Below are positions 5,765 to 27,510 of a stretch of DNA of 64,000 nt, one piece after another. The DNA comes from Candidatus Thiodictyon syntrophicum. GTDB lineage: Bacteria > Pseudomonadota > Gammaproteobacteria > Chromatiales > Chromatiaceae. The position numbers were made by a program, and so were the translations under genes. The stretch covers positions 4,489,501 through 4,553,500 of the forward strand of contig NZ_CP020370.1 of assembly GCF_002813775.1 (NCBI RefSeq), in the 5' to 3' direction. The notes below the pieces were generated by a model. That model did no database searches, had not been told where the DNA came from, and was given only the letters and a program-made list of their open reading frames with translations. Within the stretch, counting starts at the first letter, position 1. Each line of letters begins with the position of its first letter.

Positions 5765-6535
5765 CTATGGCATGGACTCGTCGCCCGCCCCATGGGTGGG
5801 ACGCGCCTCGTCCATCATCGGCCGCTCCGCCGGCTTCTCCATCGGCTTCTCGGCTGGTTTCTCCATCGGCTTCATGACCGCCTCAGCCGGCGCCGCCGCC
5901 TTGTGCCGCGGCTTGGCCGCCGCCGGCTTGGCCGCTTCCGGTGCTGCCTGCTGGGGCTTGGCCCGTGCCGGGGCCGCGGCCTTGGGGGCCGCACCGCGCC
6001 AGGCCGCCCGACCCGCACTGCGCTCACCGGCGAAGTCACCGACCAGTTGCATGGTGTCGCGCTGGATGTCGGCCACGGCACCGACGATGCCGGAGACGAA
6101 GGACTGACCGGCGGCCCGCACCTCCATCGCCATCACGCCGCGCGCGTGCTTGAAACCGTCCTGCAGCGCGGCGACCTCGTCACGCATCTGCGCATTCGAC
6201 TGGGCACGCTCGTCGCGCGCCTGCGCCGCGGACTCGGCCAGTGCCTCGCGCACGCTCGCCTGACGCTCGGCCGCGGCGACCCGGATGTCGGCGACGGCGC
6301 CGCCCAGACGGGCCAGAAAGGCGTTGCGGTCCGAGCGGGCGGACTCTGCCATGTCGGCATGTTCGGCCCGGAAATCGGCCTGCAGGGTTCCGACCGTGTT
6401 CTTCAAGTCACTGATGAAGGCGTGTGCGGCCTCCGTGACTTCTTGGCGGGTGTCGGCGATCAGGGTTTGACGGGCGATGCGCTCGGACTCGATCTCGTCG
6501 CGCAGCCGCCCCATATCTTCAGTAAAACGGCCCAT
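5765..6535 (-). CDS. gvpC: GvpC-like gas vesicle outer-surface protein
   Basis: 256 residues. The first 170 are a nearly continuous charged/alanine helix with imperfect repeats of about 33 residues (LIADTRQEVTEAAHAFISDL, FRAEHADMAESARSDRNAFL, FVSGIVGAVADIQRDTM), as expected of a protein wrapping the GvpA ribs. Residues about 180-256 are low complexity: Ala/Lys/Pro, then PMEKPAE repeats. The start at 6535 has a strong GAGGAG site. It is the second operon gene and separated from gvpA by a strong hairpin, so it is probably made in lower amount than GvpA. The assignment rests on repeats and position because GvpC is poorly conserved. Confidence 0.75.
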   Translation of the reverse strand: MGRFTEDMGRLRDEIESERIARQTLIADTRQEVTEAAHAFISDLKNTVGTLQADFRAEHADMAESARSDRNAFLARLGGAVADIRVAAAERQASVREALAESAAQARDERAQSNAQMRDEVAALQDGFKHARGVMAMEVRAAGQSFVSGIVGAVADIQRDTMQLVGDFAGERSAGRAAWRGAAPKAAAPARAKPQQAAPEAAKPAAAKPRHKAAAPAEAVMKPMEKPAEKPMEKPAERPMMDEARPTHGAGDESMP

Positions 6536-6640
6536 GGCTTGCTCCTCGTACTAATTGCGAATCTCGGACCCGGAGCAGGCGGGTTCCCGCGCAGCCGTAA
6601 AACCGGGTTCGGCGCGGCTTGCCACCTGACCCGGCACAAG

Positions 6641-6680
6641 GTGCCGCTCAGGGTCGATGCCTAAGGCATCGGAGCGGCAC
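6641..6680 (-). terminator. Strong hairpin between gvpA and gvpC (attenuator candidate)
   Basis: GTGCCGCTC pairs with GAGCGGCAC, and inside it GATGCC pairs with GGCATC around a TAA loop. There is no T-run on the minus strand. Lying 21 bases after the gvpA stop, it could stabilise the gvpA message or stop part of transcription, giving the large GvpA excess over GvpC that vesicles need. Confidence 0.6.
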
Positions 6681-6701
6681 CCCATTGGCGCGAGAGCGCG
6701 A

Positions 6702-6920
6702 TCAGGCCGGCGCCGCCGCCGGGGCGGTGAGGCCAATCGCTTCGGCATACTTCAGGTAGGTCTCAACCGAGGCGATGACCACACGGGCTTCCACGGCGAG
6801 CAGCTCGATACCGACGAGCGAGACCTTCAACCACGCATCAATCACGATGCCCTTGTCCAGAATGCGGTCAACAACTTCGGCCAGGCTGGAGGAATCGGTG
6901 GAGTTGGCGACTTTTGCCAT
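6702..6920 (-). CDS. gvpA: Gas vesicle structural protein GvpA
   Basis: 72 residues, almost invariant family sequence: [20 protein letters not shown], then [20 protein letters not shown], then [20 protein letters not shown]. GvpA is the small amphipathic protein that polymerises into the gas vesicle wall. An ATG 30 bases upstream is in frame, but the start at 6920 matches the family N-terminus and has GAGGG nine bases before it. First gene of the minus-strand gvp operon. Confidence 0.97.
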
Positions 6921-7354
6921 TTTCTTTACCCTCTGAGAGTGATTTGACATGCACGTGATGTGCGCCGAAAGCGAACCTACCGGGCCTGGGTCACATTGCG
7001 CCTCCCTGCGCCCCCACCCCGCCGGGGGAGTCCCCTGATCCGCTTGATACTGCCGGCGGGCTCAGGGCTTCCCGGTGTGGCATCCTGCCGACTCGGTCGC
7101 TTGATGGGTATAGAGCATGGCGCGTGCCAGCGGCGGATAGTGCCGACGACTTCTTTGAAATTACTTTAATATCAATGCCACCGATCGTCACGTCGCACTT
7201 TGGGGCGAGGCGATTCAGGGGGAACGCGCGGCATTTGCTATGGAATCCTTTCCATAACTCTGGCGCTGGACCCCTAGCCGCATCGCTGACCGACCACAGG
7301 TGCAGCGCGAGAGCGAAACCCATCCCCGCCGCGCTCGGCAAGCACGCACCGGCC
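6921..7354. other. Regulatory gap between gvpA and the DUF4062 gene
   Basis: 434 bases with no convincing gene. It holds the leader of the gvp operon, a GC-rich segment near 7010-7030 with runs of C and G able to pair, a sigma-54 promoter candidate (7114-7129, minus) and an A/T-rich stretch at 7150-7180. The plus-strand frame open here from 7124 shows no family resemblance before 7355. Confidence 0.5.
7114..7129 (-). promoter_or_regulatory. Sigma-54 promoter candidate for the gvp operon
   Basis: On the minus strand the sequence reads TGGCACGCGCCATGCT, against the sigma-54 consensus TGGCACG-N4-TTGCW: the GG and GC elements have the required spacing and one defined base differs. It would give a leader of about 180 bases before gvpA. 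No activator site was identified. Confidence 0.4.
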
Positions 7355-9010
7355 TTGATCAGAACGCGTCTGTTCGTCTCCACCGTCAGCACCGAGCTCG
7401 CCAGTGCCCGCCGTCTGGTCGCGGACACCCTGCGCAGGCTCGGCTTCGACACCGTGACGCAGGACGACTTTCCCACCGGCCACGGCGAGCTGCGGGCTTG
7501 GCTGGAGCAGCAGATCGCGGGCTGCGAGGGCGTCTTCCAAATGGTCGGCAGCGCCTACGGCCGCGAACCGCCCCTGAGCGACGCCCCCGGGCGCCCCTGG
7601 CCTGACCCCGCCTTCGGGCGCTGTTCCTACACCCAGTTCGAGTTGCTCTACGCCCAGCGTCTGCGCAAGCGCACCTGGGTCATCGAGGTCGGCCCCGGCT
7701 GCCGGCGCGACCGCGAACCGGCGCAACTCGACCTGCCGCCGGTGCGCGACGGCGCGCCCCCGCACCCGGACCCCGCCGGCTACCAGGCCGAGCGCCGCGC
7801 CCTGCAACTGGCCTATGTCGAGCGCCTGCGCGCCGCCAACCACCTGCGCCATCGCGTCGACAGCGATGCCGAACTCGAAAACCGCGTGCTCCGGCTCAAG
7901 GACGAACTGGCGCAACTGCGCGCGCGGCAGGAGCGCCACCAGCGCCGGCTCGGCTGGGGTCTGGGCGGCGTCTTCGCCACGCTGCTGCTGGTCGGGGGCG
8001 GCCTGCTGTGGTCCAACCACTGGAACACGACGACCATCGTCGCACAGACCGCGGCCCAGCAGCAGATCACCACCGAGCGCATCCGCGCCCACCTCCTGAC
8101 CGCGGTCGAAGACGCCTACCGCCGCGACCTCCAAGCGGCCGAGACCGTCGCCGACTGGCAGGCGCGCGAGCAACAACGCCAGGCCGCCGCGGCCCAGCGG
8201 GCGGCCCAGGTCGCCCGCATCGAGGACCTGGCCGCCTCCTTCGCCGCGATCGAGGCGCGCGGCGAGGCGAGCGGCGTGTTCACCGAACTCACCCGCATCC
8301 TGAAGGAACAGGGCGTCGATCCGGCCCTCGCCTATGTCGCCGCCAAGCGCGTCGGCATCCTCGACCAGGTCCGCAACCGCCAGGCCGCGGCACGGCAGCG
8401 CAACCGCGACGATTTGCAACCACTGCTCACCAGCGCCGGGCTCTATGCCGCCAAGGGCGAGGCCGAACCCGCGCGGGCGCTGTACCAGGAGGTGCTGGAA
8501 CTGGAGCCGGAGTGGCCGACGGCACTCGATGGCAACCTGCGGTTCCTGATCGCGCAGGGCGACCTTGCGGTGGTCCGCGGTCGTCTGCCCGATGCGGGGC
8601 GGGACTTTGCGCAGGCCAAGGCCCTGGCCGAGCGGCTGGCCGGGCTGGAGCCGGACAATCGCGAGTGGCAGCATAACCTTGGGATGTGTCTGGAGCGCAT
8701 CGGCAACACCAAGACCGCGCAGGGCGACCTCGCGGGCGCGCTGGCGGACTACGGGCAGTCCCTCGCTACCGCTGAGCGCCTGGCCGCCGCGGACCCGAGC
8801 AACGCCGACTGGCAGCGCGACCTGGCCGTGTCCCACTACAGGCTCGGCAAGATTGCCGACCGGCAGGGGTGCGAAGACCTGCTGCGGCAGCATTGGGGTG
8901 AGGTGCTCACGATCTTCGCGGCGATGCAGCAGCGGGGGCTGCATGTGTCGCCTGAGGACCTGGCGGGGTTGGAAAAGATTCGGGCGCGGGTGCAGGGTGC
9001 GGCGCGGTGA
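7355..9010 (+). CDS. DUF4062 domain protein with one membrane helix and TPR-like C-terminus
   Basis: 551 residues from the TTG at 7355, chosen because homology starts with RTRLFVSTVSTELASARRLV; an upstream start is possible. Residues 1-75 form a DUF4062 domain (FVSTVSTELASAR, then GVFQMVGSAYG), a TIR-like fold found at the N-terminus of STAND and NACHT conflict proteins. A coiled segment and one transmembrane helix (VFATLLLVGGGLLW, about 205-220) follow, then a long coiled coil (WQAREQQRQAAAAQRAAQVA) and TPR-like repeats (LYAAKGEAEPARALYQEVLE, AGALADYGQSLATAERLAAA). This layout suggests a membrane-tethered sensor or scaffold. No NTPase domain is seen. It opens an accessory block with a toxin-antitoxin pair and a SLOG-SLATT-like protein. 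Confidence 0.7.
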   Translation: MIRTRLFVSTVSTELASARRLVADTLRRLGFDTVTQDDFPTGHGELRAWLEQQIAGCEGVFQMVGSAYGREPPLSDAPGRPWPDPAFGRCSYTQFELLYAQRLRKRTWVIEVGPGCRRDREPAQLDLPPVRDGAPPHPDPAGYQAERRALQLAYVERLRAANHLRHRVDSDAELENRVLRLKDELAQLRARQERHQRRLGWGLGGVFATLLLVGGGLLWSNHWNTTTIVAQTAAQQQITTERIRAHLLTAVEDAYRRDLQAAETVADWQAREQQRQAAAAQRAAQVARIEDLAASFAAIEARGEASGVFTELTRILKEQGVDPALAYVAAKRVGILDQVRNRQAAARQRNRDDLQPLLTSAGLYAAKGEAEPARALYQEVLELEPEWPTALDGNLRFLIAQGDLAVVRGRLPDAGRDFAQAKALAERLAGLEPDNREWQHNLGMCLERIGNTKTAQGDLAGALADYGQSLATAERLAAADPSNADWQRDLAVSHYRLGKIADRQGCEDLLRQHWGEVLTIFAAMQQRGLHVSPEDLAGLEKIRARVQGAAR

Positions 9011-15146: not shown

Positions 15147-15568
15147 ACCCTATCCTAGCACATTCACCGACCTTCACAGCGCAGGCGGCTTATTTACGAT
15201 TCAATGACTTGGCGTTTTCGTTGACGACAGGGGAAGGCCGCTCGGCGGGGCCTCATGTGACTGTCGATCCTTAGGATCAGCGGTGCGAGCCCGCCCCGGG
15301 ACATCGAATAGCAATGGGGTGGCGGCCGACGGCTTATGTACGTCAGCGCACCGACCCGGCAAGCGACCAAGCCTATAAGGAGAGGGTCCCGAAAGGACTT
15401 GAGTGTCGGCGCCAGGCGTCTGAGGCGATCCCTGAGTCCTGTCACGCCCCCCTCACGTCACAAGGCCCTCGTCAGGTTGCGTCCTTCCGACCAAGCCCCT
15501 TATTGCAGGTCTTGGTCGCGCCACGGTACCGGACGGCACGCCAACCCAACTTTTTTTCACAGAGAGTC
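15147..15568. other. Intergenic region between the tRNA-Asn scar and the EF-hand gene
   Basis: Apart from the tRNA fragment at 15258-15300 I see no gene or strong signal. The plus-strand frame open from 15314 shows no protein-like composition before the EF-hand start at 15569. A poly-T stretch (15551-15557) lies just upstream of that start. Confidence 0.45.
15258..15300 (+). repeat. Decayed copy of the 3' half of tRNA-Asn (attachment-site-like)
   Basis: TGACTGTCGATCCTTAGG...GCGGTGCGAGCCCGCCCCGGG aligns over about 43 bases with tRNA-Asn 14779-14821 (anticodon arm to acceptor stem), with one inserted base and roughly seven substitutions. The 5' half is absent, so it is not a functional tRNA. 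A partial tRNA 3' end in direct orientation 480 bases from the intact gene is the classic footprint of a site-specific integrative element. Confidence 0.6.
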
Positions 15569-16198
15569 ATGATGAACCACAAGACCCGGATGCTTGTCCT
15601 TAGCCTGGCGATAACCGCCGCTTGCGCGGTCCAGCCCGCGCTGGCCGAGTCGGAGAACGTCATCGTCGGCGGCCCGCTGCCGTTCACCGCCTACGACCGG
15701 GATGGTAACGGCAGTATCAGTGCGCAAGAGTTCAACCGCGTTCACGAGCAGCAGACCAGTGAGCGTGCGGCGGCCGGCGCGCCCATGGGCGGCGTCGCCA
15801 ACACGACGACCTTCGCGGTCTTTGACCGCAATAGCGATGGCCAGGTGACGGCCGCCGAATTCACCACGGTTCAGCCGCCCGCGCCGGCGAGTGGTCCCGG
15901 GACCCAGGGGTCCGGCCCGCAGATGGGGCTCAGTGATGGCGGCGGGGTCGGCATGGCAGGGGCACTGCCCGCCTTCGCCGATCTCGATGAGAATCACGAC
16001 GGCGGCCTCAGTGCGTCTGAATTCAATGACGCACGGGCCAACCGCGTCGTGGAGAAGTCACAACAGGGCTTGCCGATCGGGAGTCTGCGCAATGCCCCGA
16101 CCTTCGAGGCGATCGATCTCAATGGCGACGGACGGATCAGCGCGGAGGAATTCGCCGTGGTCCAGACCCAGCATTCGCAGCCGCAGCCCCAACGCTGA
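15569..16198 (+). CDS. Exported EF-hand calcium-binding protein
   Basis: 209 residues: signal peptide of about 26 residues (LVLSLAITAACAVQPALA, cut before ES) and four EF-hand loops: DRDGNGSISAQEF, DRNSDGQVTAAEF, DENHDGGLSASEF and DLNGDGRISAEEF. Each has the D-x-D/N-x-D/N-G pattern and the final Glu of a calcium site. The first pair and the second pair are separated by a Gly/Pro linker near residues 110-135. Probably a periplasmic calcium sensor or buffer; no enzyme domain. AGAGAG ribosome site. A paralogue of the same plan lies at 22827-23468. Confidence 0.88.
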   Translation: MMNHKTRMLVLSLAITAACAVQPALAESENVIVGGPLPFTAYDRDGNGSISAQEFNRVHEQQTSERAAAGAPMGGVANTTTFAVFDRNSDGQVTAAEFTTVQPPAPASGPGTQGSGPQMGLSDGGGVGMAGALPAFADLDENHDGGLSASEFNDARANRVVEKSQQGLPIGSLRNAPTFEAIDLNGDGRISAEEFAVVQTQHSQPQPQR

Positions 16199-16705: not shown

Positions 16706-18665
16706 TAGGGTGTTCAATATCTCACCTATATCGCAAATTAAATTCATGCAGTTTTCGTGTTTGACACAAAATCAATGAGAGCACGCCGACGCCGGGCCAG
16801 CATCGACGCACCGAGGTGCGTTGTCGCCCACTGCTCGACATCAATAGTACGCACCGATTCCATCGCCTCCTGAATCAACGGAGTCGCTAGGTCGGCGATG
16901 AAGGCAGGAATCGCAAGCACCAGCTTACCGATCTCCTTGAGCGGCCCCCTGGTGGTGAAGCATTTGTATTTCCCGAAGACCGATTCGATGATATCGGAGG
17001 AGGCCAGCCAGACACTATCAGTCGGGATCTTGGCGGATTCCAATGCGACCTTCGCGAGAATCTGTTGGGTAAAGGCCGCCGCCCGTGGGGTGAGCGTTGA
17101 CGGCGGTGGCAGCGTGGCCTGGAGTGATTCTTGGGAGCCCTGCTGAAGACCCGTGGATTTGAGATGCGACTGAATCAGCTTGGATTGCGCCATCATTTGC
17201 GCGTAATCCACCAGGTCATCCCGGTAGGACAGTAGCCAGGCAAAGCCGTCAAGGAAGCGGCTGTACCCGGCGTCCGCTTGCTGCCAGAACACATCGTCGA
17301 GCGTATCACTCTCGAGGTCTGAGTGTGTCTGCAGTGCCTGGCAAAAAGCCGCCCGGTCGGGATAGCGAATGCCGACGATGGCCCGCAATGGGTGCGCCCG
17401 GGCGGCGCCGAACCGCGCGCACAGGTGCTCCCATGCCGACCACTTCAGGACGTATTGCGCGCGGATCGCGCTGAAGTCGCCGCGATCATGGTAGGCGAGG
17501 ACGCGTTGTGCCCACCGCACATGGACATCCAGATTCATAAAACGCGCCTTGATGCGCTGCCGAGGCGGCAGCAAGAAGGCGAGATCGGTCTGCTGCAAGG
17601 ACGACCACGCGCGGCGACAGTGCGCCAGCAAGGACTCCCAGCGCGCATCTCGGCCCATCTCGGCCTTGAGCCGCGTCGCAATAAGATGCGATATATCATA
17701 AGTATAGACGCAGGCAGTGGCGTGCTCCTGAAACAAGGCGATGCCCTTGTGCAGGTCGCTGCCGTGGTCGGCAACGATCTGGACTGGTGGACCGGTGCGT
17801 TGCGCAACGCGCCTGAGCACTTGTGCGACCCACGCTCCCGTGCTGTGTGTTGTGATCTCCACGGCCAGCACCTGCATGGCGCCGTGACACGGGCTGTAAC
17901 CGCTCTGGGCCAGTGCACTCACCGGAATACCCAGGATGACGAGGCACTTGGACGCCCCCAAGGCGATCGTATGGTCGGCGACGTAGATCCAATCCGTGCG
18001 CCATTGCGGTTGGCGATTGAGAATCGCGAGACCGCAGCGATAGACCCAGTTGAGCACGGTGGTGTGGGCTGGCGCCGCCACCGGGAGTGACGCGCCGAAC
18101 AGATTCAATACCCGCGCCACCCCGCGGCTGCCGAGCCCCGCGTGCAGATACAGCCGCATGGTTAACTGCATGACCATGACCGAATAGTGATGGCCGACCG
18201 GCGGGGACAGCGCAAGGTGTGGTGGCTCATCCGCTGGTTCGTCATCCGCCGGCGCCGCGGCCTCTTCGGCTCCCGTTCGCGCACGCTCCGCCTTTAGCGC
18301 ACGCGCCTTCCACTGCGCGCGGCTGTGCTCCAGATCCCGAATCTTGACCTCCGCGGCCCGCAGGCGCTGCTGCCGCTCCAACGCTTTCGCCTTCCAGGCA
18401 TCACGTGATCGCTGGAACAGGTTGGCCAGACGGCTCGCTGGGCTCTTGAATGCATTCATCACGTCGTGCGTGCTCCGGCAAGGCGGTCAGATCACCGCGC
18501 CAGTAGACTGATCAAGCGTTCGTCGTTTGTCAACGGCTTGGCATGAGAAAGTGTCGCACGCGTCATCGTACTCCCCCAAGCACAGAACCGACCGCCGGGC
18601 CTTCCAGGCAACACGCTTCTTGCATCGACTTTTCGGCGCCTTTTTAGGTCAGATTGAACACCCTA
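16706..18665 (-). mobile_element. Complete insertion sequence, 1,960 bp
   Basis: The ends are inverted: left TAGGGTGTTCAAT at 16706, right ATTGAACACCCTA ending at 18665, 13 bp perfect and then imperfect for about 10 more. It carries one minus-strand DDE transposase and about 200 non-coding bases after 18462. Flanking 9-bp direct repeats and the restored host frame define the boundaries to the base. I cannot name the IS family from memory. Confidence 0.85.
16744..18462 (-). CDS. IS transposase (DDE type, family not recognised)
   Basis: 572 residues. A basic coiled N-terminus (residues 10-65, KAKALERQQRLRAAEVKIRD) precedes a hydrophobic helical segment and a DDE RNase-H-like core: WIYVADHTIALGA (Asp163), QIVADHGSDLHKG (Asp232/Asp236) and SSDIIESVFGKYK (Glu493). 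The wide spacing between second Asp and Glu suggests a large insertion domain. It reads intact from start to stop, so the element may still be active. Base composition is slightly less GC-rich than its neighbours. Confidence 0.8.
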   Translation of the reverse strand: MMNAFKSPASRLANLFQRSRDAWKAKALERQQRLRAAEVKIRDLEHSRAQWKARALKAERARTGAEEAAAPADDEPADEPPHLALSPPVGHHYSVMVMQLTMRLYLHAGLGSRGVARVLNLFGASLPVAAPAHTTVLNWVYRCGLAILNRQPQWRTDWIYVADHTIALGASKCLVILGIPVSALAQSGYSPCHGAMQVLAVEITTHSTGAWVAQVLRRVAQRTGPPVQIVADHGSDLHKGIALFQEHATACVYTYDISHLIATRLKAEMGRDARWESLLAHCRRAWSSLQQTDLAFLLPPRQRIKARFMNLDVHVRWAQRVLAYHDRGDFSAIRAQYVLKWSAWEHLCARFGAARAHPLRAIVGIRYPDRAAFCQALQTHSDLESDTLDDVFWQQADAGYSRFLDGFAWLLSYRDDLVDYAQMMAQSKLIQSHLKSTGLQQGSQESLQATLPPPSTLTPRAAAFTQQILAKVALESAKIPTDSVWLASSDIIESVFGKYKCFTTRGPLKEIGKLVLAIPAFIADLATPLIQEAMESVRTIDVEQWATTHLGASMLARRRRALIDFVSNTKTA

Positions 18666-19037: not shown

Positions 19038-20204
19038 TCACTCCCCTCGCCCCCCGCCCGACGCCCCACTGCTATGGGCCGCGCTCGCGCGGGCCTGCCG
19101 CGCCGCGGCGCCCGCCAGGTGGCCGAACAGGGCCTGATAGAGGGCGCAATGGGGGTCCTTCTCAAACAGGGTCCCATGCACCGAGAAGGCCCGCACCGGG
19201 CAGCCGCCGTGGCACAGGGCCAGGTAGTCGCAGGCGATGCAGTCACGCGCGACCAGTGCCATGGGGCGTTGGTGAAAGCGCTCCACGACCGCACTGGCGG
19301 CGAGCAACTCGCTCAGGCTTGCGCACTCGAAGATGTTGCCGAACCGGTAGTCCGGGTAGCTCGTGACCCAACAGTCGCACTGGGCGACATGACCGCGGGC
19401 GTCGATACAGAGAATGTGATTGGCACAGTCGTCGGTCCAGATGCAGGGCAGGACCGTCGGCGTTCCGCTGAAATAGGCCAATAGCTCATCGAAGGGGCCG
19501 ACCCGGACCCCATCGCGTTCGCCGCGCGCCAGCCAGACCTCGGCCAGGTCGATATAGAAGCCGATGAGCGCCGCGCTGCCCGTCGGCAACAGGCCCTTCG
19601 CCTGGTTGGACTCACCCCCGGGAAAAGGCGTATTGACCTGAAAGCTGCGAATACCGAGTTCATCGACGAAATGGCGGTAGAAGCGCTCGGCGCCGAGTTC
19701 CAGAGTCGCCGCGTTGGGCACCGCGATAACCCCCACCTCGATGCCCGCGGCGCGTGCCAGGCGCACCTTGCGCGTCCAGACCGCGTTGTAGTCGGCGGCG
19801 TCCTGCCCCCGGCGGCGCCGGTAGAGGTTGGGATAGTCCAGTGAGGTGCTGACGTTGTTGTCGAACATCTCGCGGATCACCGGATTCCACTTCGGGCTGT
19901 AACCAATCATGTTGGTCTGCAATCCGTGGGTCACGCTACGCCCGCGCGCCGCGGCGGCCGCCGCGATCAGGGCCTGGGCCCGGGCGAACCAGGACGGCGG
20001 CAGGGTCATGGCCTCACCGCCCTGCCAGTGGATCATGAGCCCGGCGATGTCCTGTTCGACGAGATGATCCAATACCTTGTCGATCAGTTCCTGTAGGCGC
20101 TCCAGGGACAGCCGGTCGTTGGTCTTGACCTCGAAGCAGTAGTCACAGTCAGCATTGCATTGGAGCGTCGGGAGGAGGATCAGTGAAAAGACCTTGGTAC
20201 TCAT
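19038..20204 (-). CDS. grrM: Cyclophane-forming radical SAM/SPASM peptide maturase (GrrM/OscB type)
   Basis: 388 residues. The radical SAM motif CNADCDYC (Cys16, 20, 23) sits in LLPTLQCNADCDYCFEV, followed by HWQGGEAM and other SAM-binding turns. The C-terminal SPASM region has paired cysteines: LPCIWTDDC, CDCW, CIACDYLALCHGGCP and DPHC, enough for two auxiliary [4Fe-4S] clusters. With the WxN-repeat peptide at 21127-21420 this is the GRRM arrangement, in which the enzyme joins a Trp ring carbon to the beta-carbon of the third residue to make a three-residue cyclophane. Cytoplasmic. It starts seven bases after the accessory gene. Identification is by motif and context. Confidence 0.82.
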   Translation of the reverse strand: MSTKVFSLILLPTLQCNADCDYCFEVKTNDRLSLERLQELIDKVLDHLVEQDIAGLMIHWQGGEAMTLPPSWFARAQALIAAAAAARGRSVTHGLQTNMIGYSPKWNPVIREMFDNNVSTSLDYPNLYRRRRGQDAADYNAVWTRKVRLARAAGIEVGVIAVPNAATLELGAERFYRHFVDELGIRSFQVNTPFPGGESNQAKGLLPTGSAALIGFYIDLAEVWLARGERDGVRVGPFDELLAYFSGTPTVLPCIWTDDCANHILCIDARGHVAQCDCWVTSYPDYRFGNIFECASLSELLAASAVVERFHQRPMALVARDCIACDYLALCHGGCPVRAFSVHGTLFEKDPHCALYQALFGHLAGAAARQARASAAHSSGASGGGRGE

Positions 20205-20211
20205 GGCGCGG

Positions 20212-21033
20212 TCAACCCCGCGACGCGGCGAAAGCGGCGAGCCCGGCGCGCAGTTCGGCCGCCGCCGCGTGCAGTTCGGCGAACAGCGACTTCACACCGG
20301 TGCAGTCGGCGTCGGACCGGGGCCATTTGAAATAGGCGCCGCAGGGGGCGAGCCAGGGGCAGTCGCGACACTCGGCCCCGGCGGCGACCAGCCCCGCGCG
20401 CCACGCCGTCACGCACGCGGGACCTTGGTCGGGCGCTACCTGGCCCTGGTCGTCCAGGATGAGGACCTCGGCCTGGTCACGCTCCAGCAATGCCCAGAGA
20501 TCGACCGGGGTGTCGTGCAGGAAGGCCAGCAACAGGCCGTGAAAGGGCTCCACCGGCTGGGCGACCGTGGGATTGTAGAGGTATCCTGCGAGTGCCTCCT
20601 GCAGTTCCGCGACCACCGCGGGAGACGCCTGATGCCCCGCCAGACGGACCGCAAAGCCGAGTGAGACCGCCAGCTTGACGGCCCGCGCCACCCCCGGGAG
20701 CAGCGCGATCGTCACGCGCACCGGATGGCGGTCCAGCAATCCGGTACATCGGTAAAGCAGGGGGAGTTGGGTTGCCGGGTCGGCCATCAGCAGGTCGATG
20801 GCCAGCCCCTCACCCCAGTGGACCAAGGGCCCCAGGTCCGCCGTCAGGTCCGTGACCTGCAGGAACAACACCCTTGATGGCACGGCGGGCCCGAGCAGGG
20901 TCCGGGCCGCCGCGGGATCGGCGGTGCGCAGGATCACGCGACGGTCGGGGCAGGCCTGAAACAGGGTCGCGGGAATGCTGAAAACGGTCTGCTCCGGATG
21001 ATCCCCGGACGGGATCGGTGTCTGGTGTGACAC
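20212..21033 (-). CDS. Accessory protein of the grr cluster with a SPASM-like Cys motif but no radical SAM site
   Basis: 273 residues, not recognised. Residues 30-200 alternate beta and alpha segments (RRVILRTADP, RVLFLQVTDL, GLAIDLLMADP, VRVTIALLPG, GFAVRLAG), resembling a degenerate radical SAM barrel, but the CxxxCxxC motif is absent. The C-terminus has five cysteines (Cys207, 222, 225, 231, 244) in ECRDCPWLAPCGAYF and SDADC, like the C-terminal half of a SPASM domain, so it probably binds an Fe-S cluster. It lies between grrA and grrM and nearly abuts grrM. It may be a non-catalytic partner delivering the peptide or electrons. Confidence 0.6.
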   Translation of the reverse strand: MSHQTPIPSGDHPEQTVFSIPATLFQACPDRRVILRTADPAAARTLLGPAVPSRVLFLQVTDLTADLGPLVHWGEGLAIDLLMADPATQLPLLYRCTGLLDRHPVRVTIALLPGVARAVKLAVSLGFAVRLAGHQASPAVVAELQEALAGYLYNPTVAQPVEPFHGLLLAFLHDTPVDLWALLERDQAEVLILDDQGQVAPDQGPACVTAWRAGLVAAGAECRDCPWLAPCGAYFKWPRSDADCTGVKSLFAELHAAAAELRAGLAAFAASRG

Positions 21034-21126
21034 GGTGGCCTGCTCCCCGCGGCGTCGGGGCGCCGCCTTGATGACTGGCCAGCCCCGGCGCTATCGCCCC
21101 GGGGCCGGGTGACAACCGGGCCTCGC

Positions 21127-21420
21127 TCAGCGCCGGTTGATCCAACTGCCGCCGCGGCCGCCGCCGTTGCGGTTGACCCAACCGCCGCCGCCACGGCGAT
21201 TGACCCAGCCGCCGCCGCGGCGGTTGATCCAGCCGCCGCGGCGGTTGAGCCAGCCCGCCTCGGCGTCCGACTGCGGCACCGCCAGGCCGCCGAAGATGGC
21301 GGCGCCGATCACGATCTTCGACCAGCGGCCCATGCCGATCAGGAAACCCCGACGGCTTTGCAGTTCGTCGTCGGTCAGTTCGGCCTCTGAGCCGGAGTCA
21401 GTAACGGATTTGTCGCTCAT
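21127..21420 (-). CDS. grrA: GrrA/OscA1-type precursor of a cyclophane-containing RiPP
   Basis: 97 residues from the ATG at 21420. The leader (residues 1-55) contains ELTDDELQSRRGFLIGMGRW and a hydrophobic stretch KIVIGAAIFGGLAV ending in AEA, which resembles an export signal with twin arginines. The core carries five W-x-N motifs: WLN 57-59, WIN 64-66, WVN 72-74, WVN 81-83, WIN 93-95, each followed by R(R/N) and separated by Gly runs. W-x-N is the substrate of three-residue cyclophane synthases, so up to five crosslinks are expected. It precedes the accessory protein and GrrM on the same strand. The product's activity is unknown. Confidence 0.85.
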   Translation of the reverse strand: MSDKSVTDSGSEAELTDDELQSRRGFLIGMGRWSKIVIGAAIFGGLAVPQSDAEAGWLNRRGGWINRRGGGWVNRRGGGGWVNRNGGGRGGSWINRR

Positions 21421-22826: not shown

Positions 22827-23468
22827 TCAGGGTTGCGACATCATTTGCCCGCGATGCGCGGCCTGGCTGGCGGCGAATTCGTCTGGCGTCACCTGGCCAT
22901 TGCCGTCGGTGTCGATAGCACTGAAAGCAGGTGCCTTGCCGGCATTGCGCATCGCATACCCCTGGGCCGCACGCTCGGCCATGCGCTTGGCCCGCGCCTC
23001 ATAGAATTCCGTTTCGGTCAGAGTGCCATCTCCGTTGAGGTCGAACTCGGCGAAGACCGGCATGTTGCGGCCCATACCCATTCCGCGACCACCAGGCCCC
23101 ATACCACCGCCGGGGCCAGCCCCGGGTCCCGCGCCCATCCCCGGACGGCCCTGCATGAGCGCCTGGCGTCCGGCCTGGAACTCCTCGCTGGTCAAGCGGC
23201 CGTCGCCGTTGCGATCGAAGTCGGCGAAGGTCGGCGCCGTGGCCGCACCACGCATGGGTGCGCCTTGGGCCGCGCGCGCGGCCATGTGCGCCCCGTGAGC
23301 GGTCGTGAACTCCTGCTCGGTAACGGCCCCATCGCCGTTCTTGTCCAGTTCGGAGAAGGTCATGGGACCGGGTGGCGCCGGGGCCTGCGCCGCCAGGGTG
23401 CCGGGTAGTAACAGGCAGGCGATGGCCAGGATCAAGCCGCGGGTGATCGTTTCGGTTTGGTGTTTCAT
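22827..23468 (-). CDS. Exported EF-hand protein, second copy
   Basis: 213 residues. Signal peptide LILAIACLLLPGTLAAQ, then four EF-hand loops: DKNGDGAVTEQEF, DRNGDGRLTSEEF, DLNGDGTLTETEF and DTDGNGQVTPDEF, with a Gly/Met/Arg/Pro-rich linker (MGAGPGAGPGGGMGPGG) separating the pairs. Same architecture as the 15569-16198 protein but only moderately similar. It follows the DUF2202 gene by five bases, so the two are cotranscribed. Confidence 0.88.
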   Translation of the reverse strand: MKHQTETITRGLILAIACLLLPGTLAAQAPAPPGPMTFSELDKNGDGAVTEQEFTTAHGAHMAARAAQGAPMRGAATAPTFADFDRNGDGRLTSEEFQAGRQALMQGRPGMGAGPGAGPGGGMGPGGRGMGMGRNMPVFAEFDLNGDGTLTETEFYEARAKRMAERAAQGYAMRNAGKAPAFSAIDTDGNGQVTPDEFAASQAAHRGQMMSQP

Positions 23469-25379: not shown

Positions 25380-25622
25380 CTATTTCTTGCCGTATTTCGG
25401 ACCGGTGCCGTCAAGCTTCGGGATACCGGTGCCGGTGCAGACGCCGGTGCCGGGGCCCTTGCCACCGGCCACGACCTGGTCCATCTGTGCGGCGCTGAGC
25501 TGAATCGGGGCTGGCTGGCTGCTTTGCCCCTGAGCGACCTGGGTCGCAGTGGTCTGATCCGCCGCGGCTGCCGTGCAAGCGGCGCTGGCCAGCAGGGCGA
25601 TCAACAAGGCTTTTGCGTTCAT
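25380..25622 (-). CDS. Tiny Sec-exported peptide with a double-glycine processing motif
   Basis: 80 residues from the ATG at 25622, with GAGGAA eight bases before it. Signal peptide ALLIALLASAACTAAAA (cut near residue 21), then a 32-residue propeptide ending PIQLSAAQMDQVVAGG. This is the LS..xMD.V.AGG form of a bacteriocin-type double-glycine site, cutting after Gly54. The remaining 26 residues, KGPGTGVCTGTGIPKLDGTG followed by PKYGKK, are small, basic and contain one Cys. A predicted periplasmic C39 peptidase and a FapF-like outer-membrane protein lie just upstream on the same strand, so it is probably their substrate. Confidence 0.7.
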   Translation of the reverse strand: MNAKALLIALLASAACTAAAADQTTATQVAQGQSSQPAPIQLSAAQMDQVVAGGKGPGTGVCTGTGIPKLDGTGPKYGKK

Positions 25623-25832
25623 TTGAATTTCCTCAAGCGACTGTTGTGGAGCACATGGTTCGGCTATCAACCCATACTGACAGCCGCGTCCGCAAACGGC
25701 CCCTCGTGAACCGCGTGTCACTTGGGGCGTTTCTCCGTGTGGCGGTAGAGACATTATTCACTGAGGGTGTTTCGGCACCATGACCAGGGAGTATCGCTTG
25801 GTTTCCCATCGTGTCAGACTGTATCAGTGCCA

Positions 25833-26915
25833 CTAAAAGCGGTACGGCAGTGACACCGAGACGATGAAGTCGTTGGCGTCGTCCGTGACCCCGGCCGCCG
25901 TCGAGAGGTTCAGAAACAGGTTCTTGCCCAGTGTAAAGTCGGCGCCCAGGTTGATGTAACCGGCCGTGGCGGCCGCGCTGCGGTAGGCCTCGCCGTCCAG
26001 CGGTTCAACCTTATCATTGCCTGGAAAGTCAAAGGACAGCCCCGCATCGAGTGAAATAGCGGGGGTCGCGGCCAGGGTGACGCCCAGGGTCAGGCCAAAG
26101 CGATCGGCCGGCGTGAGACGGCCGGTCTGATAGCCCGCACCGTCCCAAAAGGTCGCGGTTCTGGACCAGGCGTAGCCATAGGATACCGTGCCATACAGCG
26201 CCACCGGCTCGCTGCGCTTGACGGCTGACAGTGACAGCGTGAGCGAGCGCAAGCCGTCGCCAATCGGTACGGGGGCGAACGGGGCGCTGCCGTTGTCATG
26301 GGTGTAGGCAAGTCGCGCCACCAGTGACGGCCAGGATGCGGTTTCCTGCGTGAGCCGCTTGCCAAGACTGACCGATACATCACCCGTGCCGTCGGCTCGC
26401 CCCAACGGGTAGTCGCGTTGGATATAAGGCAGATACAGCGCGGCGGCCATGCCCCAGGGGAGGCCGGCCTCCAGACCCAGGCCATAGGCGATGGACTCAT
26501 AATGGTCATCGCCCTGTCCGTCGTGGAACCAGGTCAGGCTCGGGGTAAGGCGGAAGGTGCCGCTAGGCAGCAGCACCAGCCCCTTGGTGACCAAGGCCTC
26601 TTCCATCGCGCTGTTCGCGGCTTGCGCCTCCACCGGGGGCTTGGCGGCGTTGGCATCGAGGCCGATGAGCGGCGACCCGCCGCCCCGTTTGCCGGCGGCC
26701 AGTTGTCCTTCCAGGGCCTTGACGCGCGTATGCAACTGCTGGTTGATCGCCCGCTGGGCCGCCAGTTGTTGCCGTAACGATTCGACGGTTGCGGTGGCGG
26801 AATCAGCGCCAGGCGCCCGGGAGGCCGCCGCGTCTTGCGGCGTTTGTGACAACGCAAGCGTGGGCACGGGTGTTGCGCAGCAGGCCAGCAAAAGGCGCAG
26901 GGCGGTGTTCTTCAT
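25833..26915 (-). CDS. FapF-like outer-membrane beta-barrel transporter
   Basis: 360 residues: signal peptide ending ALSQ, a short coiled coil (residues about 42-75, VESLRQQLAAQRAINQQLHT) of the type that trimerises at the FapF N-terminus, then MEEALVTKGLVLLPSGTFRL, the conserved entry into a 12-strand barrel, and alternating strands ending SVSLPYRF with a terminal Phe. FapF secretes functional-amyloid subunits through the outer membrane in Pseudomonas. It starts eight bases after the C39 peptidase gene. No FapB/C-type amyloid repeat protein is in the window, so the cargo here is probably different. Confidence 0.75.
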   Translation of the reverse strand: MKNTALRLLLACCATPVPTLALSQTPQDAAASRAPGADSATATVESLRQQLAAQRAINQQLHTRVKALEGQLAAGKRGGGSPLIGLDANAAKPPVEAQAANSAMEEALVTKGLVLLPSGTFRLTPSLTWFHDGQGDDHYESIAYGLGLEAGLPWGMAAALYLPYIQRDYPLGRADGTGDVSVSLGKRLTQETASWPSLVARLAYTHDNGSAPFAPVPIGDGLRSLTLSLSAVKRSEPVALYGTVSYGYAWSRTATFWDGAGYQTGRLTPADRFGLTLGVTLAATPAISLDAGLSFDFPGNDKVEPLDGEAYRSAAATAGYINLGADFTLGKNLFLNLSTAAGVTDDANDFIVSVSLPYRF

Positions 26916-26923
26916 GGTGATAC

Positions 26924-27478
26924 TCAGGGAGACGGCGGGCGGGTAACGACAAAGGCCATTCCCTCCATCCAGACGGCAGTGAAGCCGGCGATGGACAGGG
27001 TGCGGTTCCCAAAGGCCGGGTCGGCGAGTAAGACCCGATCGCCCGTGACCCCGTTGAACACCACATAATGGTTGTAGCCGTGCTGATTGATGGGCACGAT
27101 GGGGGCGTGAAAGACGCGCAGGTCATCGAATCCGAGGTGCTGGTAGGCACTGCCCCGATAACCGCGACCCGTGACGAAGTGCTGCAAGTCCAGCAAGGAG
27201 AACCCGCCGCGCGCCTTGACCTTGGCCGGGGCGGTCAGCTCCAGCATGCGCGCGGCGGCGAGGCGCTCGCTGACCGGATCGTTGAAGCCGTAGGTGAGCA
27301 CCGTGGCCACCGCTGCCGCGGCACAACTGCTTTCCCACTGCTGCATGACGACACCGCGCTCTCGGATTTCCTTGAGGCTGCGAAACGGTTGCGGTGTCTG
27401 CGCCGGCGCCGGCGCCGCGGCCAGGCACAGGGTGGCGGTGAAAATACTCAGAACGGCCTTGGTGATCATGGTGCCCAT
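26924..27478 (-). CDS. FapD-like periplasmic C39 peptidase
   Basis: 184 residues from the ATG at 27478 (27469 also possible). Signal peptide (VLSIFTATLCLAAAPAPAQ), then a C39 domain: WESSCAAAAVATVLTYG with catalytic Cys52, GYNHYVVFNG with His138, and LLADPAFGNR with Asp154; the Gln before Cys (QQWESSC) is also there. Unlike ABC-transporter C39 domains it is a free exported protein. It heads an operon with the FapF-like gene and is preceded by the four-repeat operator shared with the two-component system. The likely job is trimming exported peptides at double-glycine sites. Confidence 0.8.
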   Translation of the reverse strand: MGTMITKAVLSIFTATLCLAAAPAPAQTPQPFRSLKEIRERGVVMQQWESSCAAAAVATVLTYGFNDPVSERLAAARMLELTAPAKVKARGGFSLLDLQHFVTGRGYRGSAYQHLGFDDLRVFHAPIVPINQHGYNHYVVFNGVTGDRVLLADPAFGNRTLSIAGFTAVWMEGMAFVVTRPPSP

Positions 27479-27510
27479 GCTCGACCCGCCCTGTAGCAAC
27501 ACCTTGTCAG

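Follow-up and report, generated by a model that had tools for sequence, protein, structure and literature searches.

A W-x-N peptide operon of Candidatus Thiodictyon syntrophicum that couples a radical SAM/SPASM maturase with a predicted pseudo-radical-SAM protein

Gene order, precursor and maturase

The window examined here, a stretch of 64,000 nucleotides from Candidatus Thiodictyon syntrophicum, a purple sulfur bacterium of the family Chromatiaceae, carries three genes arranged head to tail as an operon on the minus strand, in the order precursor peptide, partner protein and radical S-adenosylmethionine (rSAM)/SPASM maturase (Table 1). A preliminary description of the window had placed all three genes correctly and had suggested that the partner might be a pseudo-rSAM protein in the biosynthesis of a ribosomally synthesized and post-translationally modified peptide (RiPP), a suggestion borne out by the fold, profile alignment and cysteine pattern presented below. 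The partner gene starts with GTG, shortly preceded by GGGGAG, and the ATG of the rSAM gene lies 7 nucleotides past the partner stop codon; three relatives show an 8-nucleotide overlap of these genes instead. Comparison of neighbourhoods beyond the closest relatives revealed no further gene kept around the set, and the unit therefore consists of the precursor, the partner and the rSAM protein. No exporter or protease gene conserved beside the operon was found. The gap between the precursor and partner genes (window 21036-21126) holds a GC-rich hairpin, and close relatives have strong stems of different sequence. Such a hairpin might set the precursor-to-enzyme ratio, but because its z-score against shuffled sequence is only -1.2, which is not significant, we make no claim on it.

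Table 1 Features of the operon (window positions)
Feature	Position	Strand	Remarks
Precursor peptide, 97 aa, five W-x-N motifs	21127..21420, stop included	minus	ATG at 21420; directly upstream of partner in every intact locus with upstream sequence
Leader segment R23-R24-x-F-L ... A-E-A, to residue 55	21256..21354	minus	Tat-type signal pattern, probable recognition leader
Core, residues 56-97, five W-x-N motifs, Gly/Arg-rich spacers	21130..21255	minus	Predicted three-residue cyclophane sites
Partner, predicted pseudo-radical-SAM/SPASM protein, 273 aa	20212..21033	minus	Fold, profile alignment, cysteine pattern
Partner C222-x2-C225-x5-C231-xx-YFKWP-xxDxx-C244, putative AuxII-type cluster ligands	20302..20370	minus	20/20 copies; hhalign to rSAM
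rSAM/SPASM maturase, 388 aa	19038..20204	minus	Library models, invariant cysteines, structure-database sequence matches
CNADCDYC, SAM-binding [4Fe-4S] motif of maturase	20136..20159	minus	Cysteines invariant, 18 sequences
Maturase SPASM region, C254 to C353, AuxI and AuxII ligands	19146..19445	minus	Invariant cysteines; TIGR04085

The 42-residue core of the precursor holds the five W-x-N motifs that had been counted previously, a number that no shuffled version of its letters reached in 200,000 trials. Every intact relative keeps a W-x-N series, with two to more than ten motifs, and the combination of aromatic-x-Asn/Asp motifs in the core with an adjoining SPASM rSAM gene is that of triceptide systems. 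In the reduced genome of the symbiont Candidatus Thiodictyon intracellulare (L023/L020), the precursor has two W-x-N motifs only, and the rSAM gene is broken by stops and frameshifts.

The RR...hydrophobic pattern that had been remarked on in the leader is a conserved property, RRxFL being invariant among the precursors. Along the leader, RR-x-F-L is followed by G-x-W-S, I and GG, and none of these named residues varies among the 13 to 17 precursors compared; nearly every precursor also has a small-residue AxA-type site immediately before its first W motif. Signals for the twin-arginine translocation (Tat) pathway combine RRxFL, a hydrophobic stretch and AxA. All three elements occur in the precursor, TatC is encoded in the genome, and at the sequence level the leader resembles a Tat signal; the Tat-signal models of Pfam and NCBIfam gave no match to the precursor. 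A leader profile retrieved a single peptide from the genome, the operon's own precursor, and returned only chance-level matches, nothing convincing, across 398 genomes of the phylum. In the open-access literature, searches on Tat export of RiPP precursors and on pseudo-rSAM proteins yielded no relevant paper, although prior work may still exist.

The maturase has the complete radical SAM/SPASM set attributed to it at the outset: CNADCDYC, the GGE motif and all SPASM cysteines are invariant in 18 sequences, and the SPASM domain model TIGR04085 scores 46.8 bits against a cut-off of 27. Many peptide-modifying rSAM models match the protein, the best being those of anaerobic sulfatase maturase (anSME; 118 bits) and DynA (117 bits), and none of the specific-family cut-offs among them is reached. 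Its solved relatives by sequence are anSME (E 1e-23) and ChlB (E 7e-9). The names GrrA and GrrM used in the preliminary description had to be dropped, as GrrA/OscA1 (TIGR04260) matches the precursor with 21.8 bits, over the repeat region only, against an NCBIfam cut-off of 31, and GrrM/OscB (TIGR04261) matches the maturase with 79.1 bits against a cut-off of 310. As in the loci of OscB/GrrM, XncB and other enzymes that form three-residue cyclophanes, a SPASM-type rSAM gene adjoins a precursor in which aromatic-x-Asn motifs recur; in such motifs, OscB makes a bond between Trp C7 and the Asn/Asp beta carbon (PMC11002830). The locus differs from them in its rSAM protein, which falls far under the GrrM/OscB cut-off and nearer the anSME and DynA models, in its Tat-like leader and in the constant presence of a pseudo-rSAM partner.

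Predicted fold and cysteine pattern of the partner

Searches with the partner against Pfam, NCBIfam and PDB sequences gave no match above noise, either singly or as 16 members. The AlphaFold2 model built from 16 orthologues (predicted local distance difference test, pLDDT, 86.3; predicted template modelling score, pTM, 0.84) displays six strand-helix units and, after them, a C-terminal part, in agreement with the barrel-like pattern first noticed in the letters. The best matches of this model among PDB structures were rSAM/SPASM enzymes that modify peptides, aligned over the whole chain: ChlB (Z 12.9, 246 residues aligned), anSMEcpe (Z 12.5, 241-243 residues aligned) and, lower, SuiB (Z 8.6). 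Unrelated barrels reached Z 8.6 at most over about 160 residues. The predicted model combines a partial (beta/alpha)6 barrel with a following SPASM domain, as in the rSAM/SPASM fold. ChlB (PDB 9gm3, 9gmc), a multiple cyclophane synthase whose JACS 2025 paper is cited in PMC12636437, matches the partner over its whole length and the maturase by sequence. Unlike ChlB, which is a catalytic rSAM enzyme, the partner has neither the SAM cluster motif nor the cysteines of the first auxiliary cluster (AuxI).

Profile comparison by hhalign placed residues 105-271 of the partner on the C-terminal half of the operon's own maturase (E 8e-5) and paired C222, C225, C231 and C244 with C322, C325, C331 and C353 of the rSAM protein, positions that correspond in the published SPASM motif to the ligands of the second, outer auxiliary cluster (AuxII; PMC12093266). 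A joint MAFFT alignment, discarded for modelling, likewise set the partner C-terminus onto the maturase SPASM domain, which is consistent with homology. The four cysteines, arranged as CX2CX5C...C, are present in 20/20 copies, two of which have no other cysteine. Five C-terminal cysteines had been described for this protein; four of them proved invariant and the fifth, C207, did not. The reported lack of CxxxCxxC extends to all 20 copies, and the GGE motif, invariant in the neighbouring rSAM protein, is absent from the conserved alignment columns of the partner and from the partner copy encoded in the window. Instead of the 7-8 cysteines of a full SPASM ligand set (AuxI and AuxII), only the four AuxII-type cysteines are found, and these are conserved.

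The retention of an rSAM-SPASM fold and of the AuxII cysteines, together with the loss of CxxxCxxC, GGE and the AuxI cysteines, points to a pseudo-rSAM protein, an assignment that the predicted fold, the profile alignment and the cysteine pattern support well. The partner probably retains one auxiliary cluster. In the simplest reading, it would be a duplicated rSAM/SPASM protein in which SAM chemistry is gone but one outer cluster survives.

The restriction of the conserved ligands to the outer auxiliary cluster also bears on an alternative in which this solitary AuxII-type cluster is indispensable to the catalytic subunit as an electron relay or acceptor, taking up the electron left after each ring closure or re-reducing the SAM cluster. 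The idea is reasonable because PapB turnover needs intermolecular electron transfer, likely through its second auxiliary cluster (PMC10470005). The catalytic subunit, however, has a complete SPASM set itself, and descriptions of other triceptide enzymes include no protein of this kind; we regard an obligatory relay as unlikely and rate a scaffold or docking role above it.

The partner type had been introduced as unfamiliar, which calls for qualification: pseudo-rSAM genes are known from RiPP clusters of Bacteroidales (PMC10352776), and a two-rSAM maturase from thuricin CD (PMC12093266). The Bacteroidales genes (IPR026418) lie beside rSAM and precursor genes and were suggested to assist the rSAM protein (PMC10352776). 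They share with the partner an rSAM-like character with the catalytic site missing and the same company of genes, but belong to another phylum and accompany other precursors, and none of the 16 partner members matched their family model in NCBIfam. In the thuricin CD maturase, a TrnC/TrnD complex in which only the SAM chemistry of TrnC is strictly needed, TrnD carries CX2CX5C plus one further Cys (PMC12093266). Two rSAM-fold proteins are present in both systems, with similar auxiliary sites in TrnD and the partner, whereas TrnD, unlike the partner, keeps an active SAM cluster and a RiPP recognition element (RRE), and the links made in thuricin CD are thioether rather than C-C. By analogy, the partner looks like the end point of a TrnD-like path, with the same auxiliary site and the SAM site lost, and the system may work like a triceptide-type pathway with a TrnD-like helper, outside both the GrrA/GrrM and the Bacteroidales pseudo-rSAM family models.

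Co-inheritance and selective constraint

The partner and the rSAM protein occur in an identical set of 18 of the 210 genomes of the family, which also make up the order-level set. Beyond the family (class samples of 369 and 274 genomes), the two proteins again coincided, in G183 and G407, two genomes of another family. The genes are unlinked there: one contig carries a precursor and the partner gene, and the other carries the rSAM gene and a second precursor, whose leader is the same. Co-occurrence that is kept despite broken linkage argues for one shared machine and against a passenger gene. The split loci are L033 (G183:C18), L071 (G183:C61), and L072 and L073 (G407), and the second precursor beside the rSAM gene has many GW[FHYN]NR-type repeats. 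The preliminary description had named homologues lying mostly outside RiPP loci as a finding that would speak against its reading; the opposite was found, as all intact partner copies with upstream sequence adjoin a W-x-N precursor. No partner was found on plasmids or viral contigs.

Two alternatives draw on the split genomes, where the partner gene lies beside the precursor and away from the rSAM gene. Redox enzymes have Tat proofreading chaperones, and the partner could likewise be an escort that binds the RRxFL leader during or after cross-linking and passes the folded peptide on to Tat, with no part in the chemistry. The invariant Tat-like RRxFL with its AxA site, the presence of TatC and the lack of a conserved exporter or protease gene alongside the operon would fit such an escort. 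Its predicted fold is nevertheless that of rSAM/SPASM proteins rather than of known Tat chaperones, and a mere chaperone has no obvious need for the AuxII cysteine set, so that we consider this role rather improbable. Alternatively, the partner could be an independent iron-sulfur enzyme that adds a second modification to the same precursor; the invariant Y-F-K-W motif, together with further polar residues that do not vary, could form its active site. The SAM-binding motifs are lost, however, and the cluster appears fully ligated by four Cys with no open iron site, which makes an independent enzyme highly improbable.

Both genes are under purifying selection, with ratios of nonsynonymous to synonymous substitution rates (dN/dS) of 0.16-0.27 for the partner and 0.11-0.22 for the rSAM gene, and the partner has 25 invariant positions. 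The lost catalytic motifs and the broken partner copies present in two genomes could be taken as signs of a decaying duplicate without function, but the constraint on its sequence and its perfect co-inheritance with the rSAM protein over 20 genomes leave this explanation almost no credibility.

In G229 (L074, G229:C36, about 5768-7900), the partner gene has an internal deletion and a frameshift and the rSAM frame is still open; the leader of the precursor is gone, and GGWINGR alone is left, on an unrelated frame. This is a system in decay, whose parts are lost together at least in part. A genome with two intact operons has a third, fragmentary partner copy beside a sulfatase-like reading frame (L037, G082:C1, about 7594-7950).

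Elsewhere in the window, positions 25833-27502 (minus strand) encode two proteins with matches below cut-off, a FapF-like outer-membrane protein (60 bits) and a FapD-like C39 peptidase (76 bits), and a small Gly-rich protein is encoded nearby at 25380-25754; together they form a possible distant cluster of the functional-amyloid (fap) type. A 572-aa protein at 16744-18462 (minus strand), with only a weak match to IS6 transposase (20 bits), is possibly an unclassified transposase. EF-hand-like DxNGDG repeats occur in two proteins that look secreted, encoded at 22827-23468 (minus strand), with four EF-hand matches, and at 15314-16198 (plus strand).

A proposed two-subunit maturase

Gene order, co-inheritance, constraint, predicted fold and the loss of catalytic motifs, all obtained by computation, lead us to favour, as the probable explanation, a partner that acts as a non-catalytic, substrate-guiding subunit of a two-protein cyclophane maturase and probably keeps an AuxII-type cluster. 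The operon would encode both this maturase and its ribosomally made substrate, and cross-linking would turn the W-x-N motifs of the substrate into three-residue cyclophanes. The catalytic subunit would be the 388-aa rSAM/SPASM protein, which would cleave SAM and, motif by motif, join Trp to the Asn beta carbon. As a degenerate rSAM/SPASM copy without the SAM-binding and inner auxiliary clusters and with the outer one retained, the 273-aa partner would dock on the catalytic subunit and hold or advance the leader and the repetitive core, such that one active site could serve several motifs. Its putative [4Fe-4S] cluster would be mainly structural and possibly an electron relay as well. The modified peptide would then be exported, probably by Tat, and the leader cut at the AxA site just before the first motif.

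Several points weigh against a two-subunit maturase. The Foldseek E-values of the partner against ChlB are just 9e-3 to 3e-2, and the hhalign probability against the maturase is 61%. A fused partner-maturase AlphaFold2 model, obtained by reading through the TGA of the relative L024, had a pTM of 0.59, with the partner half poorly modelled and the interface uninformative. OscB/GrrM, XncB and other triceptide enzymes are active in coexpression with a precursor, with no such partner mentioned (PMC11002830), so that the catalytic subunit here may also do without its partner. No solo rSAM protein of this subfamily was found for comparison. A more specific version of the two-subunit maturase, in which the stripped second subunit is a scaffold whose solitary AuxII cluster is required for multi-site turnover, Tat carries a folded, cross-linked RiPP and the leader is both recognition element and Tat signal, is a tentative and somewhat doubtful proposition.

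RiPP clusters have been recorded in which pseudo-rSAM genes of untested function accompany rSAM genes. The operon described here is a compact three-gene case, present in 20 genomes with strict co-inheritance, in which the partner appears reduced to one auxiliary cluster. The compactness of the system makes the role of a pseudo-rSAM protein, and the purpose of the long-debated outer auxiliary cluster, directly testable by coexpression. The Tat-like leader would, in addition, give a cross-linked peptide a self-contained export route, independent of a dedicated exporter or protease.
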